Shown: positions 23,708 through 30,755 of the stretch, piece by piece
Numbering within the stretch: the stretch's first letter is position 1
Layout: each line of letters starts with the position of its first letter
Assembly (NCBI GenBank): GCA_019058365.1
Contig: JAHPZE010000007.1
Location: 62,001 to 126,000, forward strand
DNA from: Promethearchaeota archaeon
GTDB taxonomy: Archaea; Asgardarchaeota; Lokiarchaeia; Sigyniarchaeales; SOKP01
Length of the DNA: 64,000 nt
Direction of reading: 5' to 3'
Made by a program: the position numbers and the translations under genes
The notes under the pieces: generated by a model
The model's input: the letters and a program-made list of their open reading frames with translations, nothing else
Database searches by the model: none
What the model was told of the DNA's origin: nothing

Positions 23708-24923
23708 TATTTATTTTCACTTTCTCTTTTAAGATTTCTTCTATAGAATTCTGGAATTCTTCCCTTTCAGTTTTAAGAGTTCCGAGATATCTAGTGTAAT
23801 CTTTGTTTTTTCTCTCAAAATCATTTTGAATGTGCTCTAACTTCACAGTATTTATAGAAATTTCATTTTTTAAATCATCTAATTTTTGAGCGAGCCCAGC
23901 TTCTAGAATTACTAGTTCAATTTCTTTAATTTCATCTTTTAATTGTAAATATTTTTCAATATTTTCTTGTAATTGTTTTTCATTAAAAATTGCATTTATT
24001 TGTTCTATTGTTTTCTGTTTAGTATCTGTTTTAAGATTTAATCTATTCTCTTCTAGACTATGACGTAGCTGTACCATAAGACTTGTGAATTTTGGTAAAT
24101 TTTTTCGTTCGTTAGCTAATATTTTAATTGGATTTTTAATAAAATCTCTTAAATAATTTAAATCAATATTCGGAACATGAATTGTACCTTTTTCTAATTC
24201 AAACCTTAGCTTTTTCAATGCTTTCTTAAAACCTATTTCATCATTAATCGCTAATTGTAATTGAAAAAGATTATCCTTTTCAACTTCCAATCTCTTGAAA
24301 AGCTCATTTTTTTCTAAATCTAACAAATTTGAATTTAATTCTTCTTGTTTTTTATTGCGTTCCTCTAACTGCTTTTTAAACTCATCTAAATCCAACTTCG
24401 CATGCTCAATATTATCTTTAAGGTGAAAGAGTTTTGGTAGCTTTTTAAGGAAATTTTCAGCATTTCTTACATCGGTATATTTCTTTCTTAAAAATGTGTC
24501 CAAATCTGCTTGTTTTTTACCTAATTTTCGAGTAATGTAATTTAATTCTTTAATTTCTGCTTGGACTTCTTTATGAAACTTCGGTAAAGATTTTCTAGCG
24601 ATTTCATTAATACTTGTAAATAATCTCTTAATAGAATTTAACAATTCCATCATATTATCATAATTTATTTCCTTTTCAGGAATTTCTATCTCTTCAATTT
24701 CTTTTCTAATTCTGTCTGAGAAAAAGTTTAATGATCTTTGAGCTTTTTGATCGATCTTTTCCTTACCCGTCTCTAAAAAGTGATCTAAACATACTTTTAT
24801 TTCAAATAAATTCTCTCTAATCTCAGTAAGTAATTTTTTGATCGCTCTCCTTAATTTAAAGAATTGAGATTCGAGCTTCTCTTTATAAAATTCTTCGAAC
24901 TCCTCTAAATCTTTTTCTATCAT
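23691..24923 (-). CDS. Coiled-coil protein, 410 residues
   Basis: An almost fully helical, highly charged protein with heptad patterns across most of its length and few Pro or Gly. There is no ATPase motif, so it is not an SMC protein, and no membrane segment or zinc ribbon. It lies 13 bases downstream of serS on the same strand and is probably co-transcribed with it. Its C terminus overlaps the convergent cofC by 17 bases. A scaffold or filament role is possible, but no family is recognised. Confidence 0.7.
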   Translation of the reverse strand: MIEKDLEEFEEFYKEKLESQFFKLRRAIKKLLTEIRENLFEIKVCLDHFLETGKEKIDQKAQRSLNFFSDRIRKEIEEIEIPEKEINYDNMMELLNSIKRLFTSINEIARKSLPKFHKEVQAEIKELNYITRKLGKKQADLDTFLRKKYTDVRNAENFLKKLPKLFHLKDNIEHAKLDLDEFKKQLEERNKKQEELNSNLLDLEKNELFKRLEVEKDNLFQLQLAINDEIGFKKALKKLRFELEKGTIHVPNIDLNYLRDFIKNPIKILANERKNLPKFTSLMVQLRHSLEENRLNLKTDTKQKTIEQINAIFNEKQLQENIEKYLQLKDEIKEIELVILEAGLAQKLDDLKNEISINTVKLEHIQNDFERKNKDYTRYLGTLKTEREEFQNSIEEILKEKVKINITFSF

Positions 24924-26732: not shown

Positions 26733-28718
26733 TTGTCTGAAAGTCAGACCAATGTTAGAATAGGAGTTTATATATGTGAGTGAGGAGTGAATATAAAAGC
26801 TTCTGTTGATTGCGATGCGGTTAAAAATGCTATTGAAAATCTCCCAAATGTAGTGATCTCTAGGGTAAATTCTTTTACTTGTAGCGATCCAGGACAAAAT
26901 ACTATCAGAAATGATATTTTAGAACAGGATTTGAATAGAGTAGTAGTTGCTGCATGTACTCCAAAAATCCATGAACCCACCTATAGAGCAGTTTTAATTG
27001 AAGCCGGTTTAAGTCCATATTATTTTCAAATGGTTAATTTAAGAGAGCACTGCTCTTTTGTTCATAGAGATGATAAAAAAAAGGCTACAGAGAAAGCCAT
27101 AAGATTGGTTAAAGCTGGAATTAATCGTGCACGAGAATTAGAAAATATTCCTCGGAAAGAGATTCCTGTAAAAAAAGCGGTTTTAATTGTTGGAGCAGGA
27201 ATTGCTGGAATGAATGCTGCCTTAGATTTAGCCAATCAAGGAATTCCCGTCTATTTAGTTGAAAAAGAAGCAACTATTGGAGGAAAAATGGCGCAATTAG
27301 ATAGGATATATCCAACAGATGATTGCGGAATATGAGTTCTGGCACCAATAATGGTTAATGCATCAAAACATCCAAACATAAATTTATTTACCTATAGTGA
27401 TGTTGTAGAATTCAGTGGTATACCAGGAAATTATAAGGCTAAGATTAGAAAGAATGCACGGTATGTTGACGAGAACAAATGTACGGGATGTGGATTATGT
27501 ACAACTAAGTGTCCTATTAAAGTCCCTAGTGAGTTTGATAGAGGTATTGGTGAAAGAGGAGCAATCTATATTCCATTTCCCCAAGCAGTACCGAAGTTAG
27601 CTGTTATGGATAGAAGTGTATGTATTGATTGCAAAAATTGTGAACGAATTTGCCCTGCTGAAGCAATTAATTTTGAGCAAGAAACGGAATATATCGATAT
27701 CAATATAGGGGCAGTAATTATTGCAACAGGGTGGGATGAGTATCCAATATGGAAATCTAACGAATATAATTATGGATTTTATCCCGATGTAATTACACAA
27801 ATAGAGTTAGAAAGACTGTTAAGTCCTATTGGACCTACAGGAGGACATGTATATCGAATTTCCAATGGAGAAACACCAAAAAACGTAGTGATGATTCAAT
27901 GTGTAGGTTCTAGGGATGTTAATGCTAATCCATACTGTTCTTTCGTTTGTTGTAATGTGGCACTTAAGAATGCCCAATTACTCAAACAAGAATATCCCGA
28001 CATGGATGTTATTATATTTTATATTGACATTCGAACAACCGACAAGGGAAATGAAGAATATTATAGAAAAATAAGAGAATCAGGTATACGAATGATTAGA
28101 GGAAAAGTAGGCGAAATAATAGAGGATAGTAAAACCAATAAATTAAAAGTTAGAGCATACTCATCTTTAACTGGTGAGATTGTAAAAATTAATGCTGATT
28201 TAGTTGTCTTGTCTACAGGAATGATTCCTTCTAAGGGAACAGAAGAAATGGTTGAAGTAATGGGCTTAAGTAAGGGGCCAGGAGGGTTCCTTTCAGAAAT
28301 TCATGGATGTTTAAGTCCACAAGAAACGAAAGATATAGGAATTTACATTGCTGGATGTGCTGCTGGGCCAAAAAATATTCCATATTCAGTATCTTCAGCT
28401 TTAGCAGCTGCAAGTAAAGCATCTACTATTTTATCTCATGACACCATAAAACGAGAATTAATTATCGCTGAAGTAAATGAAGCACTATGTATGGGATGTC
28501 ATAGGTGTGAGAAATTATGCTTCTATGAAGCAATAAAAGTTAATGATAGGGAAATCGCTGAAGTTAATGATTTAAAATGTAAAGGTTGTGGGGTGTGTAT
28601 ATCTTCTTGCCCCGCAAGAGCTATTGACTTGAAATATTATCGAGATCGGCAATTTTCTCAGGAATTTAAGGGTATTGGCAACACTGAATTAGAAACTGTA
28701 GAAAGTATTGAAGAATAA
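26733..28718 (+). CDS. hdrA: Heterodisulfide reductase subunit A, selenoprotein with two in-frame UGA codons
   Basis: A continuous HdrA of 661 residues is obtained by reading UGA at 26781 (residue 17) and 27333 (residue 201) as selenocysteine. The frame upstream of the first UGA encodes RIGVYICEU-GVNIKASVD, the conserved HdrA N terminus, in which the second Cys of the usual CxCG becomes Sec. At the second UGA, TDDCGIU-VLAP replaces the usual TDDCxxC-xLAP. The TTG at 26733 is chosen because an in-frame TAG precedes it directly and AAGGTGA lies 5 bases upstream. Other domains: FAD Rossmann GAGIAGMNAA (about 154), ferredoxin clusters at 250-260 and 297-307, and two C-terminal clusters at 586-596 and 616-626. 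HdrA is the flavin subunit that bifurcates electrons. It is followed 18 bases later by mvhD. A frame broken by chance would not keep conserved sequence on both sides of each stop. Confidence 0.92.
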
Positions 28719-28736
28719 ACAAATTAGAGGTTAATA

Positions 28737-29168
28737 ATGATGTCTAAAGAAAAAAATAATAGTTCTAGACGGATAGTTGCTTTTGGTTGTGATAAGTGAG
28801 GATACTCTGTAGCAGATTTAACCGGTGTGACAAGAAAATCATACTCTACAGATTTTCATCTCATTAGAGTAAGATGCACTGGAAGAGTCGGAATTCATTT
28901 AATTATGGAAGCTTTCTTAAATGGCGCTGATGGAGTTGCGATAATTTCTTGAAAAGAAGGTGAATGTGAATTTGGAAATGGTAATATTAATACATATGAA
29001 CATATACTTTCTTTAAAGAAATTATTAAAATATGAAGGTATTTCTGAAGATCGTGTTCAGCAATATTTCTGTTCAGCAGCAGAGGTCGAAAAATTTATAA
29101 ATTCAGTTAAAGATATTACAGCTAAAATTTATGCTCTCCCTCCACTCCCAAAATATAATCCGAAATAG
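28737..29168 (+). CDS. mvhD: F420-non-reducing hydrogenase delta subunit MvhD/VhuD, selenoprotein with two UGA codons
   Basis: Reading UGA at 28797 and 28950 as Sec gives a complete 143-residue MvhD. The family pattern CxxC ... CxGR ... CxxxxC appears as GCDKU (18-21), RCTGRVG (near 50) and UKEGEC (72-77), so Sec replaces one Cys in each pair. Further family segments are NGADGVAIIS and SAAEVEKFIN. MvhD carries a [2Fe-2S] centre and passes electrons from an electron donor to HdrA. A GAGG ribosome-binding site lies before tandem ATG codons at 28737 and 28740. No hydrogenase large or small subunit is nearby, so the donor is probably the FrhB-like protein downstream. Methanococcal VhuD is a known selenoprotein, which supports the reading. 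Confidence 0.92.
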
Positions 29169-29240
29169 AATGACCTTTTCAAAAAAATTGTGGTTGAAAA
29201 GCAACTAACCCATTGCTTGGGTTTTCGGAAAAATTTAGAA
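29169..29240 (+). ncRNA. Candidate SECIS-like element in the 3' region of mvhD
   Basis: Downstream of the mvhD stop the RNA can fold into a stem with AAAUU (29185-29189) paired to AAUUU (29232-29236), a core with UGA (29195-29197) facing GGA (29227-29229), an upper helix AGCAA (29200-29204) with UUGCU (29213-29217), and an apical loop CUAACCCA holding an AA pair. UGA opposite GA and an AA loop are hallmarks of the eukaryote-like SECIS elements reported for Lokiarchaeota selenoprotein genes. An alternative hairpin AACCCA/UGGGUU competes with the upper helix, so the exact fold is uncertain. It would serve the four UGA codons of hdrA-mvhD if both are on one mRNA. Confidence 0.5.
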
Positions 29241-29255
29241 TTATGATAAATTAAA

Positions 29256-30755
29256 ATGATTATGAGTCTTGAAGAAAAATTTTCATGGGAATTTTTAAAA
29301 AATATAGCAGATGCTTTAGATTCATATAGAATTCGAGTACTAATAGATGCTAAACAAGATATTTTAAAAGCTGGAATATATGATGAATCTCAATATGATA
29401 CTATCCTTTATAGAATGTTAGATGAAGAAAAGCTAAAATATTCCCTATTTAATTATTTAAAAAATAATTCTAAAAATAATTTAAAAACTCTAATTAAATT
29501 TTCTGAACTTAACTCTATTGATTTAAGTAAAACATTGAGTTTACTAGAATTACTTAAAAATGAAAAACTAATATTTCTTGAAGAAAAAGTGGATAAAATT
29601 GAAGGAGATGAGAATAATCCTGATAAATTCATCTTTAAAGATTATATAATAAAAATTAATGATGATCAAATTTCAAAATTAAAACCTATATATGAACCAG
29701 TAAAAGTGATTTTTGAGTCTAAAATTTGTTCTGGTTGTGGTTTATGTGCGGGAATATGTCCTGTGAATTGCCTTCATATTTATAATGGTTTTGGGAAAAT
29801 TGATGAAGATAAGTGTATTCGTTGTGGATTGTGTTATTTTGTTTGTCCAAGAACTTTTTTACCAATGAAAATTTTAAATATGACACAAGAAAAAGCTTCT
29901 AAGATTAAAGAATATGAGAAGATTGGATATTTTCTTGAAGCTTATTCAGCAAGAACAAAAATTAAAGAAATTTCTGAAATATGTCAAGATGGAGGAATTT
30001 CAAGCACTTGTTTACATTATCTTTTTGATAAAAGTGAAATCGACTTTGCTTTAGGAGCAAAAATGAGTAATACATTATGGCGACCTGAACCAGTTTTATT
30101 AAAAAATAAGGAAGAACTCCTTTCAACAGCAGGAACTAAATATGTAAACAATCCTAACTTGCAAATACTCAATCAAAGTGAACTTAAAAATAAAAAAATC
30201 GCAGTAGTAGGAGTTCCTTGTCAAATGCAAGCAATCCTAAAATCCGAGATTTACAATATTGGAGTCCCCTCCTTAAATTCTATTAATTATAAAATTGGAA
30301 TCTTCTGCATGGAATCCTTTTCTTATGAGTCACTTTTAGAAATATGTACAAAATTGAATGTGGATATTAAGAATGCAAAAAAGATGGATATTAATAAAGG
30401 AAAGTTCCTTATATACACGAACAATGGAGAAGAATTGAACATTCCAATTAAAGATATCTCACACTTAGCTCGAGAAGATTGTGAAATTTGTTATGATTTA
30501 ACCTCTGAATCCGCAGATATTTCAGTTGGATCAATAGGGTCTCCATCAGGATGGAATACGGTACTTATTAGAACTGAAAAAGGAAAAAAACTCTATAATA
30601 AATTGATTGAAAACGACTTAATTGAGTCGAAACCGATAGCAGAAGTGAAACCCGGCTTACCATTATTACAAAAAGTCGCTGGTTCGAAAAAAAGTAAAAG
30701 CATAAAACACATTAATTCAAAAAAAGAAGAAAATGTAAGAGTACCGAATTACTAG
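29256..30755 (+). CDS. FrhB-like F420 hydrogenase/dehydrogenase beta subunit with ferredoxin domain
   Basis: 499 residues. The N-terminal 150 residues are helical and family-specific. Then come two [4Fe-4S] motifs, C158-x2-C161-x2-C164-x3-C168 and C187-x2-C190-x2-C193-x3-C197. The FrhB/FdhB domains follow: CQDGGISSTCLHYLF, LSTAGTKYV, VVGVPCQMQAI, IGIFCMESFS and the closing ADISVGSIGSP, which bind FAD and F420. The expected reaction is hydride exchange between F420H2 and iron-sulfur centres. It lies 87 bases after mvhD, so hdrA-mvhD-frhB look like one unit moving electrons between F420 and HdrA. Its last 297 bases are duplicated in decayed form at 33168. Confidence 0.85.
   Translation: MIMSLEEKFSWEFLKNIADALDSYRIRVLIDAKQDILKAGIYDESQYDTILYRMLDEEKLKYSLFNYLKNNSKNNLKTLIKFSELNSIDLSKTLSLLELLKNEKLIFLEEKVDKIEGDENNPDKFIFKDYIIKINDDQISKLKPIYEPVKVIFESKICSGCGLCAGICPVNCLHIYNGFGKIDEDKCIRCGLCYFVCPRTFLPMKILNMTQEKASKIKEYEKIGYFLEAYSARTKIKEISEICQDGGISSTCLHYLFDKSEIDFALGAKMSNTLWRPEPVLLKNKEELLSTAGTKYVNNPNLQILNQSELKNKKIAVVGVPCQMQAILKSEIYNIGVPSLNSINYKIGIFCMESFSYESLLEICTKLNVDIKNAKKMDINKGKFLIYTNNGEELNIPIKDISHLAREDCEICYDLTSESADISVGSIGSPSGWNTVLIRTEKGKKLYNKLIENDLIESKPIAEVKPGLPLLQKVAGSKKSKSIKHINSKKEENVRVPNY

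Follow-up and report, generated by a model that had tools for sequence, protein, structure and literature searches.

The window analysed here, a stretch of 64,000 nucleotides from a Promethearchaeota archaeon (contig JAHPZE010000007.1), contains two adjacent genes on the plus strand. The first, hdrA [26733-28718], encodes heterodisulfide reductase subunit A, a protein of 661 amino acids with a UUG start and two in-frame UGA codons that are predicted to encode selenocysteine (Sec). It matches NCBIfam HdrA2 with 816 bits and PDB entries 9sfi and 5odc, and a 460-residue HdrA query found its nearest named relatives in MAGs of Candidatus Lokiarchaeota, at 95% identity. The first UGA [26781-26783], at Sec 17, is part of a C-x-U-G motif at the N-terminus; it is kept as UGA in orthologues and is Cys in PDB 9sfi_A. 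The second [27333-27335] corresponds to Sec 201 in DCGIU, a site that is occupied by X, a non-standard residue, in the same PDB chain. The second gene, mvhD/frhD [28737-29168], ends with the stop codon UAG [29166-29168] and matches Pfam FlpD (PF02662) with 126.5 bits. Its two in-frame UGAs, [28797-28799] and [28950-28952], correspond to Sec 21 in CDKU and Sec 72 in AIISU, respectively, and both are conserved in orthologues. The original prediction had counted four in-frame UGAs in two genes, and we found these at 26781, 27333, 28797 and 28950; comparison with homologues establishes that every one of them, two in hdrA and two in mvhD/frhD, occupies a conserved Cys site.

Across operons, HdrA has one to four Sec and FrhD has one or two, and Cys is found at three of the HdrA Sec sites in PDB 9sfi_A. 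HdrA proteins with UGA at a ferredoxin-motif Cys (DCKNU-ER), and others with three or four Sec located mostly in the N-terminal part, were seen at six loci; in such an HdrA, the Sec at the DCKNU-ER site may be an iron-sulfur cluster ligand. Reading the UGAs as true stops, with both genes decayed, has the stop codons themselves and nothing more in its favour, and it is hardly credible when UGA is found at Cys-equivalent sites only, is conserved over dozens of genomes, and occurs together with the Sec machinery. The genome from which the window comes encodes SepSecS (equivalog TIGR03531, 433 bits) and a PSTK-like protein, the score of which, 150.7 bits, is under the curated cut-off of 290.5. The gene for its tRNA-Sec, located by a DNA search with the tRNA of a congener, lies about 0.3 kb before SepSecS (L252:1451-1603; about 23.03-23.18 kb on contig C34 of the genome). 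It is split by a 34-nt insert in the D-arm and an insert of roughly 30 nt in the T-arm. ARAGORN and Rfam missed this gene in the genome; the interruption keeps its Rfam score below the cut-off. An intron in the T-arm of Loki tRNA-Sec is already known (PMC5330540), and the D-arm insert looks like an addition to it.

The structure behind mvhD, which comprises segment [29157-29231] of the plus strand, is a three-way junction of helices I and II and a hairpin III; it is outlined by covariance models R1 and R3, by covariation, and by RNAalifold run without a given structure. The 5' arm of helix I, UCCGAAA [29159-29165], is located in the last codons of mvhD and pairs with the 3' arm UUUCGGA [29223-29229], which directly abuts hairpin III. 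All 7 pairs of this helix show two-sided changes in an alignment of 55 sequences (A3). The AUGA [29170-29173] of the kink-turn core, or SECIS quartet, faces AA [29203-29204] and is invariant in the MAFFT alignment (A1). The core is AUGA_AA with an adjoining C.C mismatch, compared with the canonical AUGA_GA. Helix II consists of 8 base pairs and one C.C beside the core; its covarying arms, CUUUUCAA [29175-29182] and UUGAAAAG [29194-29201], have two-sided changes in 9 of 9 pairs in A3, including the column pair 29174/29202. They are connected by an A-rich apical loop of 11 nt, AAAAAUUGUGG [29183-29193], which is constant in length in the orthologues of the window copy and has three invariant adenines. 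Hairpin III, ACCC-AUUGCUU-GGGU [29208-29222], forms the 3' part of the junction, with two-sided changes in 3 of 4 pairs in A3. In the aligned 3' ends of orthologous operons, the coding end of mvhD (..NPK-stop) forms the 5' arm of helix I and AUGA is opposite AA or GA. The next gene [29256-30755], which encodes 499 amino acids and appears to be Fe-S and FrhB-like from its sequence, starts 25 nt past the element, which therefore lies between cistrons and not clearly at the end of a transcript.

A hairpin had been predicted at this place, and a structured element with the AUGA and the A-rich apical loop is indeed present; its pairing and its boundaries are different. The predicted span, 29169-29240, begins too late, as the 5' arm of helix I starts earlier, inside the mvhD coding sequence, and nothing after about 29231 belongs to the element. 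The hairpin as drawn also overlooked hairpin III. In that drawing the UGA is opposite GGA [29227-29229], and both motifs are present; the GGA, however, is the helix I partner of UCC [29159-29161], with the two-sided changes described above, and the UGA faces AA, or GA in relatives, which leaves next to no probability for the original pairing. The junction structure has a free energy of -15.4 kcal/mol in the window copy. For this copy alone, the energy model favours a hairpin GGUUG-AAAAG-CAACU over helix II, and the mean pair probability of helix II is 0.45; it is at least 0.89 in 15 of 17 orthologues, the other two (L121 and L124) being like the window. The competing hairpin may count for less than covariation, kink-turn proteins and the junction together. 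A pseudoknot or switch UAGUU/AACUA was also considered and set aside: its UU is part of helix II, AACUA shares positions with the core, and only the competing fold of the window copy is left.

The prediction of a SECIS at this place is supported by covariance. Model R3, built with the window left out, matches 29157-29231 with 95.6 bits (E=1e-21), much better than chance would allow. In A3, which also includes other operons and families, 92.7% of the cells are paired, 19 of 20 pairs have two-sided changes across homologous loci, and the covariation score is 0.484, compared with 0.161 for shuffled and at most 0.106 for slid alignments; A3 is itself a fit to the model and is biased towards it. 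In A1, 17 cells have two-sided changes that keep the pairing, compared with 4.6 in shuffles, and RNAalifold run on the MAFFT alignment with no structure supplied gave the identical three helices. A three-helix descriptor, which is alignment-free, found the element at a threshold of <= -25 in 64 of 79 UGA-containing operons, in 4 of 1,975 dinucleotide shuffles, and in none of 12 controls, taken behind frhD copies that lack UGA at their Sec sites; these sequence counts are not numbers of independent events. The descriptor also detects a class of divergent sequence, AUGUGUU..AACACAU (for example L057), and the order-level relatives L103, L107 and L126. Model R2 is blind to the divergent class (for example L057 and L098), most of which the descriptor scan recovers. 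Comparison thus establishes both the element and its helices.

The hairpins could instead be a transcription terminator or a processing site, as their location between cistrons and the T-rich surroundings might suggest. The element, however, follows UGA codons rather than gene ends: it is found behind Sec genes from unrelated families (hdrA, frhD, VhuU, SelD and Prx-like) and is absent behind frhD copies whose Sec sites have no UGA. The AUGA and the loop adenines are, in addition, conserved and unpaired, and we therefore consider this explanation very improbable. In the genome from which the window comes, the 8 best matches obtained with model R1 (E no higher than 0.00104) are all behind ORFs with in-frame UGA. 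Thus the element tracks UGA-bearing, Cys-homologous genes in a genome with Sec machinery, as is expected of a SECIS. Two weaker model matches were rejected. The match 28722-28788 (E=0.078) is not conserved in relatives, and the match 24259-24320 on the minus strand (E=0.0045 in the window and 0.33 in the genome), within an unrelated coiled-coil-like ORF without UGA, is probably due to chance. Rfam and ARAGORN gave no matches in the window, and none of the Rfam SECIS families matched this element, either at the gathering score or with the limit relaxed to E=10.

The distances from the UGAs to the AUGA of the element are 220, 373, 1,837 and 2,389 nt, the largest, which the original prediction gave as about 2.4 kb, being that of the first UGA of hdrA. 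As also predicted, the spacer between hdrA and mvhD [28719-28736] has 18 nt and no SECIS of its own, and no conserved model match was found at the junctions of relatives. The element could instead serve mvhD alone, with hdrA having its own signal, whether in the 5' leader, internally, or as a 5' SECIS like that proposed for M. jannaschii fdhA. Such an arrangement would account for SECIS-UGA distances beyond the published archaeal range, and two conserved features are present in the hdrA leader. In the window segment 26620-26760, orthologues keep the promoter-like box AGAAAAAATAAATTA, and the hairpin GUCUG..CAGAC overlaps the hdrA start codon in orthologues, with a loop that varies in length by whole codons. 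This hairpin, however, has no AUGA/GA core. No conserved SECIS model match was found in the leader, coding sequence or junction at the loci of relatives, and the euryarchaeal-type pattern (GAA_A bulge, three S-S pairs) has no match in the leader, hdrA, the junction, mvhD or the 3' end, so that no better SECIS was found inside mvhD or before hdrA.

Comparison of 62 Lokiarchaeal Sec-hdrA loci in named genomes establishes a one-element rule: exactly one SECIS match is present at 57 of them, and at the remaining 5 a contig edge falls within or just past the genes. Where hdrA is solo (14 loci), the very same element directly follows it, 53-68 nt past the end of the HdrA domain; where frhD is adjacent (43 loci), the element is at the end of frhD only. 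In the genome from which the window comes, too, the element comes immediately after a solo Sec-hdrA (C16:346827, L220). Because the element follows solo hdrA directly and only frhD in adjacent pairs, a single SECIS most likely serves both cistrons, with four UGAs here and up to six in relatives, and a separate signal for hdrA is unlikely. Among operons with a near-complete hdrA, eight have four Sec in HdrA and two in FrhD behind one SECIS. We thus agree with the original prediction of one Loki- or eukaryote-like SECIS behind mvhD for the UGAs of both genes, on the basis of covariation, the lack of any other element and the comparison of solo and operon loci, and we infer its action on hdrA. 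Segment [29157-29231] is very probably a Lokiarchaeal eukaryote-like (type I) SECIS, a three-way junction across the mvhD stop, which would be the only SECIS of the unit and direct Sec at all four UGAs.

A SECIS common to hdrA and frhD of Asgard archaea is already published: in the accessible text of Huang 2024 (PMC11227280), Asgard hdrA and frhD are always neighbours and almost all have one common eSECIS-like structure, and AUGA_AA occurs in Loki hdrA/frhD. According to the same text, the Asgard type I elements share with the structure described here the AUGA_[G/A]A core, the A-rich loop, the overlap with the stop codon and the single element per adjacent hdrA/frhD. They have a 5'-GA_[G/A]A-3' quartet after AU or GU (here AUGA [29170-29173] and AA [29203-29204]), an upper stem of 7-15 bp with at most two mismatches (8 bp and C.C), an apical loop of 8-20 nt with leading adenines (11 nt), a location between 30 nt upstream and 600 nt downstream of the gene end (here across the mvhD stop), and a free energy below -5 kcal/mol (-15.4). 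The type I model in that text consists of two stems with an internal loop and a single apical loop, whereas the covarying hairpin III is an extra hairpin in the 3' part of the junction. We class the element as a variant of the Asgard type I eSECIS-like elements, because it has the core features and the region of hairpin III carries no score in the published model. A review also describes the Lokiarchaeal SECIS with one apical loop (PMC9499178), and the accessible literature on Asgard SECIS, to which the 2016 Lokiarchaeota paper and supplements do not belong, contains no description of a third hairpin that we could find. The accessible published texts do not extend to the third hairpin, to the comparison with solo hdrA, to HdrA with three or four Sec, or to the distance.

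The element resembles the eukaryotic SECIS in its kink-turn AUGA core, unpaired apical-loop adenines, 3' position and predicted kilobase-range action; it differs in having two cistrons, a start in coding sequence, a third hairpin and no match to Rfam SECIS. To our knowledge, SBP2 is reported to be absent from archaea, and we know of no archaeal SECIS-binding factor. The euryarchaeal SECIS of Methanococcales and Methanopyrus is alike in its 3' position, and Methanococcales hdrA/frhD elements with [A/G]UGA_[G/A]A appear in the accessible text of Huang 2024 (PMC11227280); the euryarchaeal GAA_A bulge with S-S pairs is, however, absent here. Published archaeal SECIS-UGA distances are 70-1,500 nt, with one or two Sec per gene (PMC9499178), compared with which 1.8 and 2.4 kb in the window are outliers. 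Two UGAs occur in vhuD of M. maripaludis (PMC9622424), and a Lokiarchaeal SECIS was non-functional in this organism (PMC11881835).

In the mechanism that we propose, hdrA and mvhD would be co-transcribed, and the PSTK/SepSecS route would make Sec-tRNA(Sec), which archaeal SelB would deliver. A putative factor would bind the kink-turn and the A-rich loop, and the mRNA would loop back for recoding of the UGAs 220, 373, 1,837 and 2,389 nt upstream. More generally, the Lokiarchaeal SECIS is likely to be a three-way junction in which the third hairpin covaries and the basal helix is formed partly by the last codons. One copy would act over two cistrons and more than 2.3 kb, on as many as six UGAs, of which HdrA would have four and FrhD two. 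This would exceed both the number of Sec per gene and the distance given for archaea in the review cited above (PMC9499178).

Further selenoprotein candidates were observed. A family of proteins of about 142 amino acids has two consecutive UGAs (SGC-UU-EKV, HAD-UU-ADV) and a SECIS right behind each gene at six loci; two members (C34:292076-292501 and C34:290299-290703) are in the genome from which the window comes. Two TGA are found in nearly all of the about 40 matches listed, from 27 genomes and down to 24% identity, and the two listed matches without them end before the site. The family, which has no Pfam or NCBIfam match, is a possible tandem-selenocysteine family. Many small proteins with one or two transmembrane segments have one or two UGAs (GGUACT, GGCGUGG, SAUGTQ, VSUGEIVY, GGGGUPCUIG) and a SECIS immediately 3', at 15 loci. 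They are outside the seven Asgard families in the accessible text of Huang 2024 (PMC11227280) and are candidates for new membrane selenoproteins.

The SECIS model finds elements genome-wide and reveals selenoprotein candidates that had not been listed. Solo hdrA and hdrA-frhD together form a natural control for testing directly if a single 3' SECIS is able to act beyond a whole cistron and across a termination event, in the Asgard archaea, which are a bridge between archaeal and eukaryotic selenocysteine decoding.
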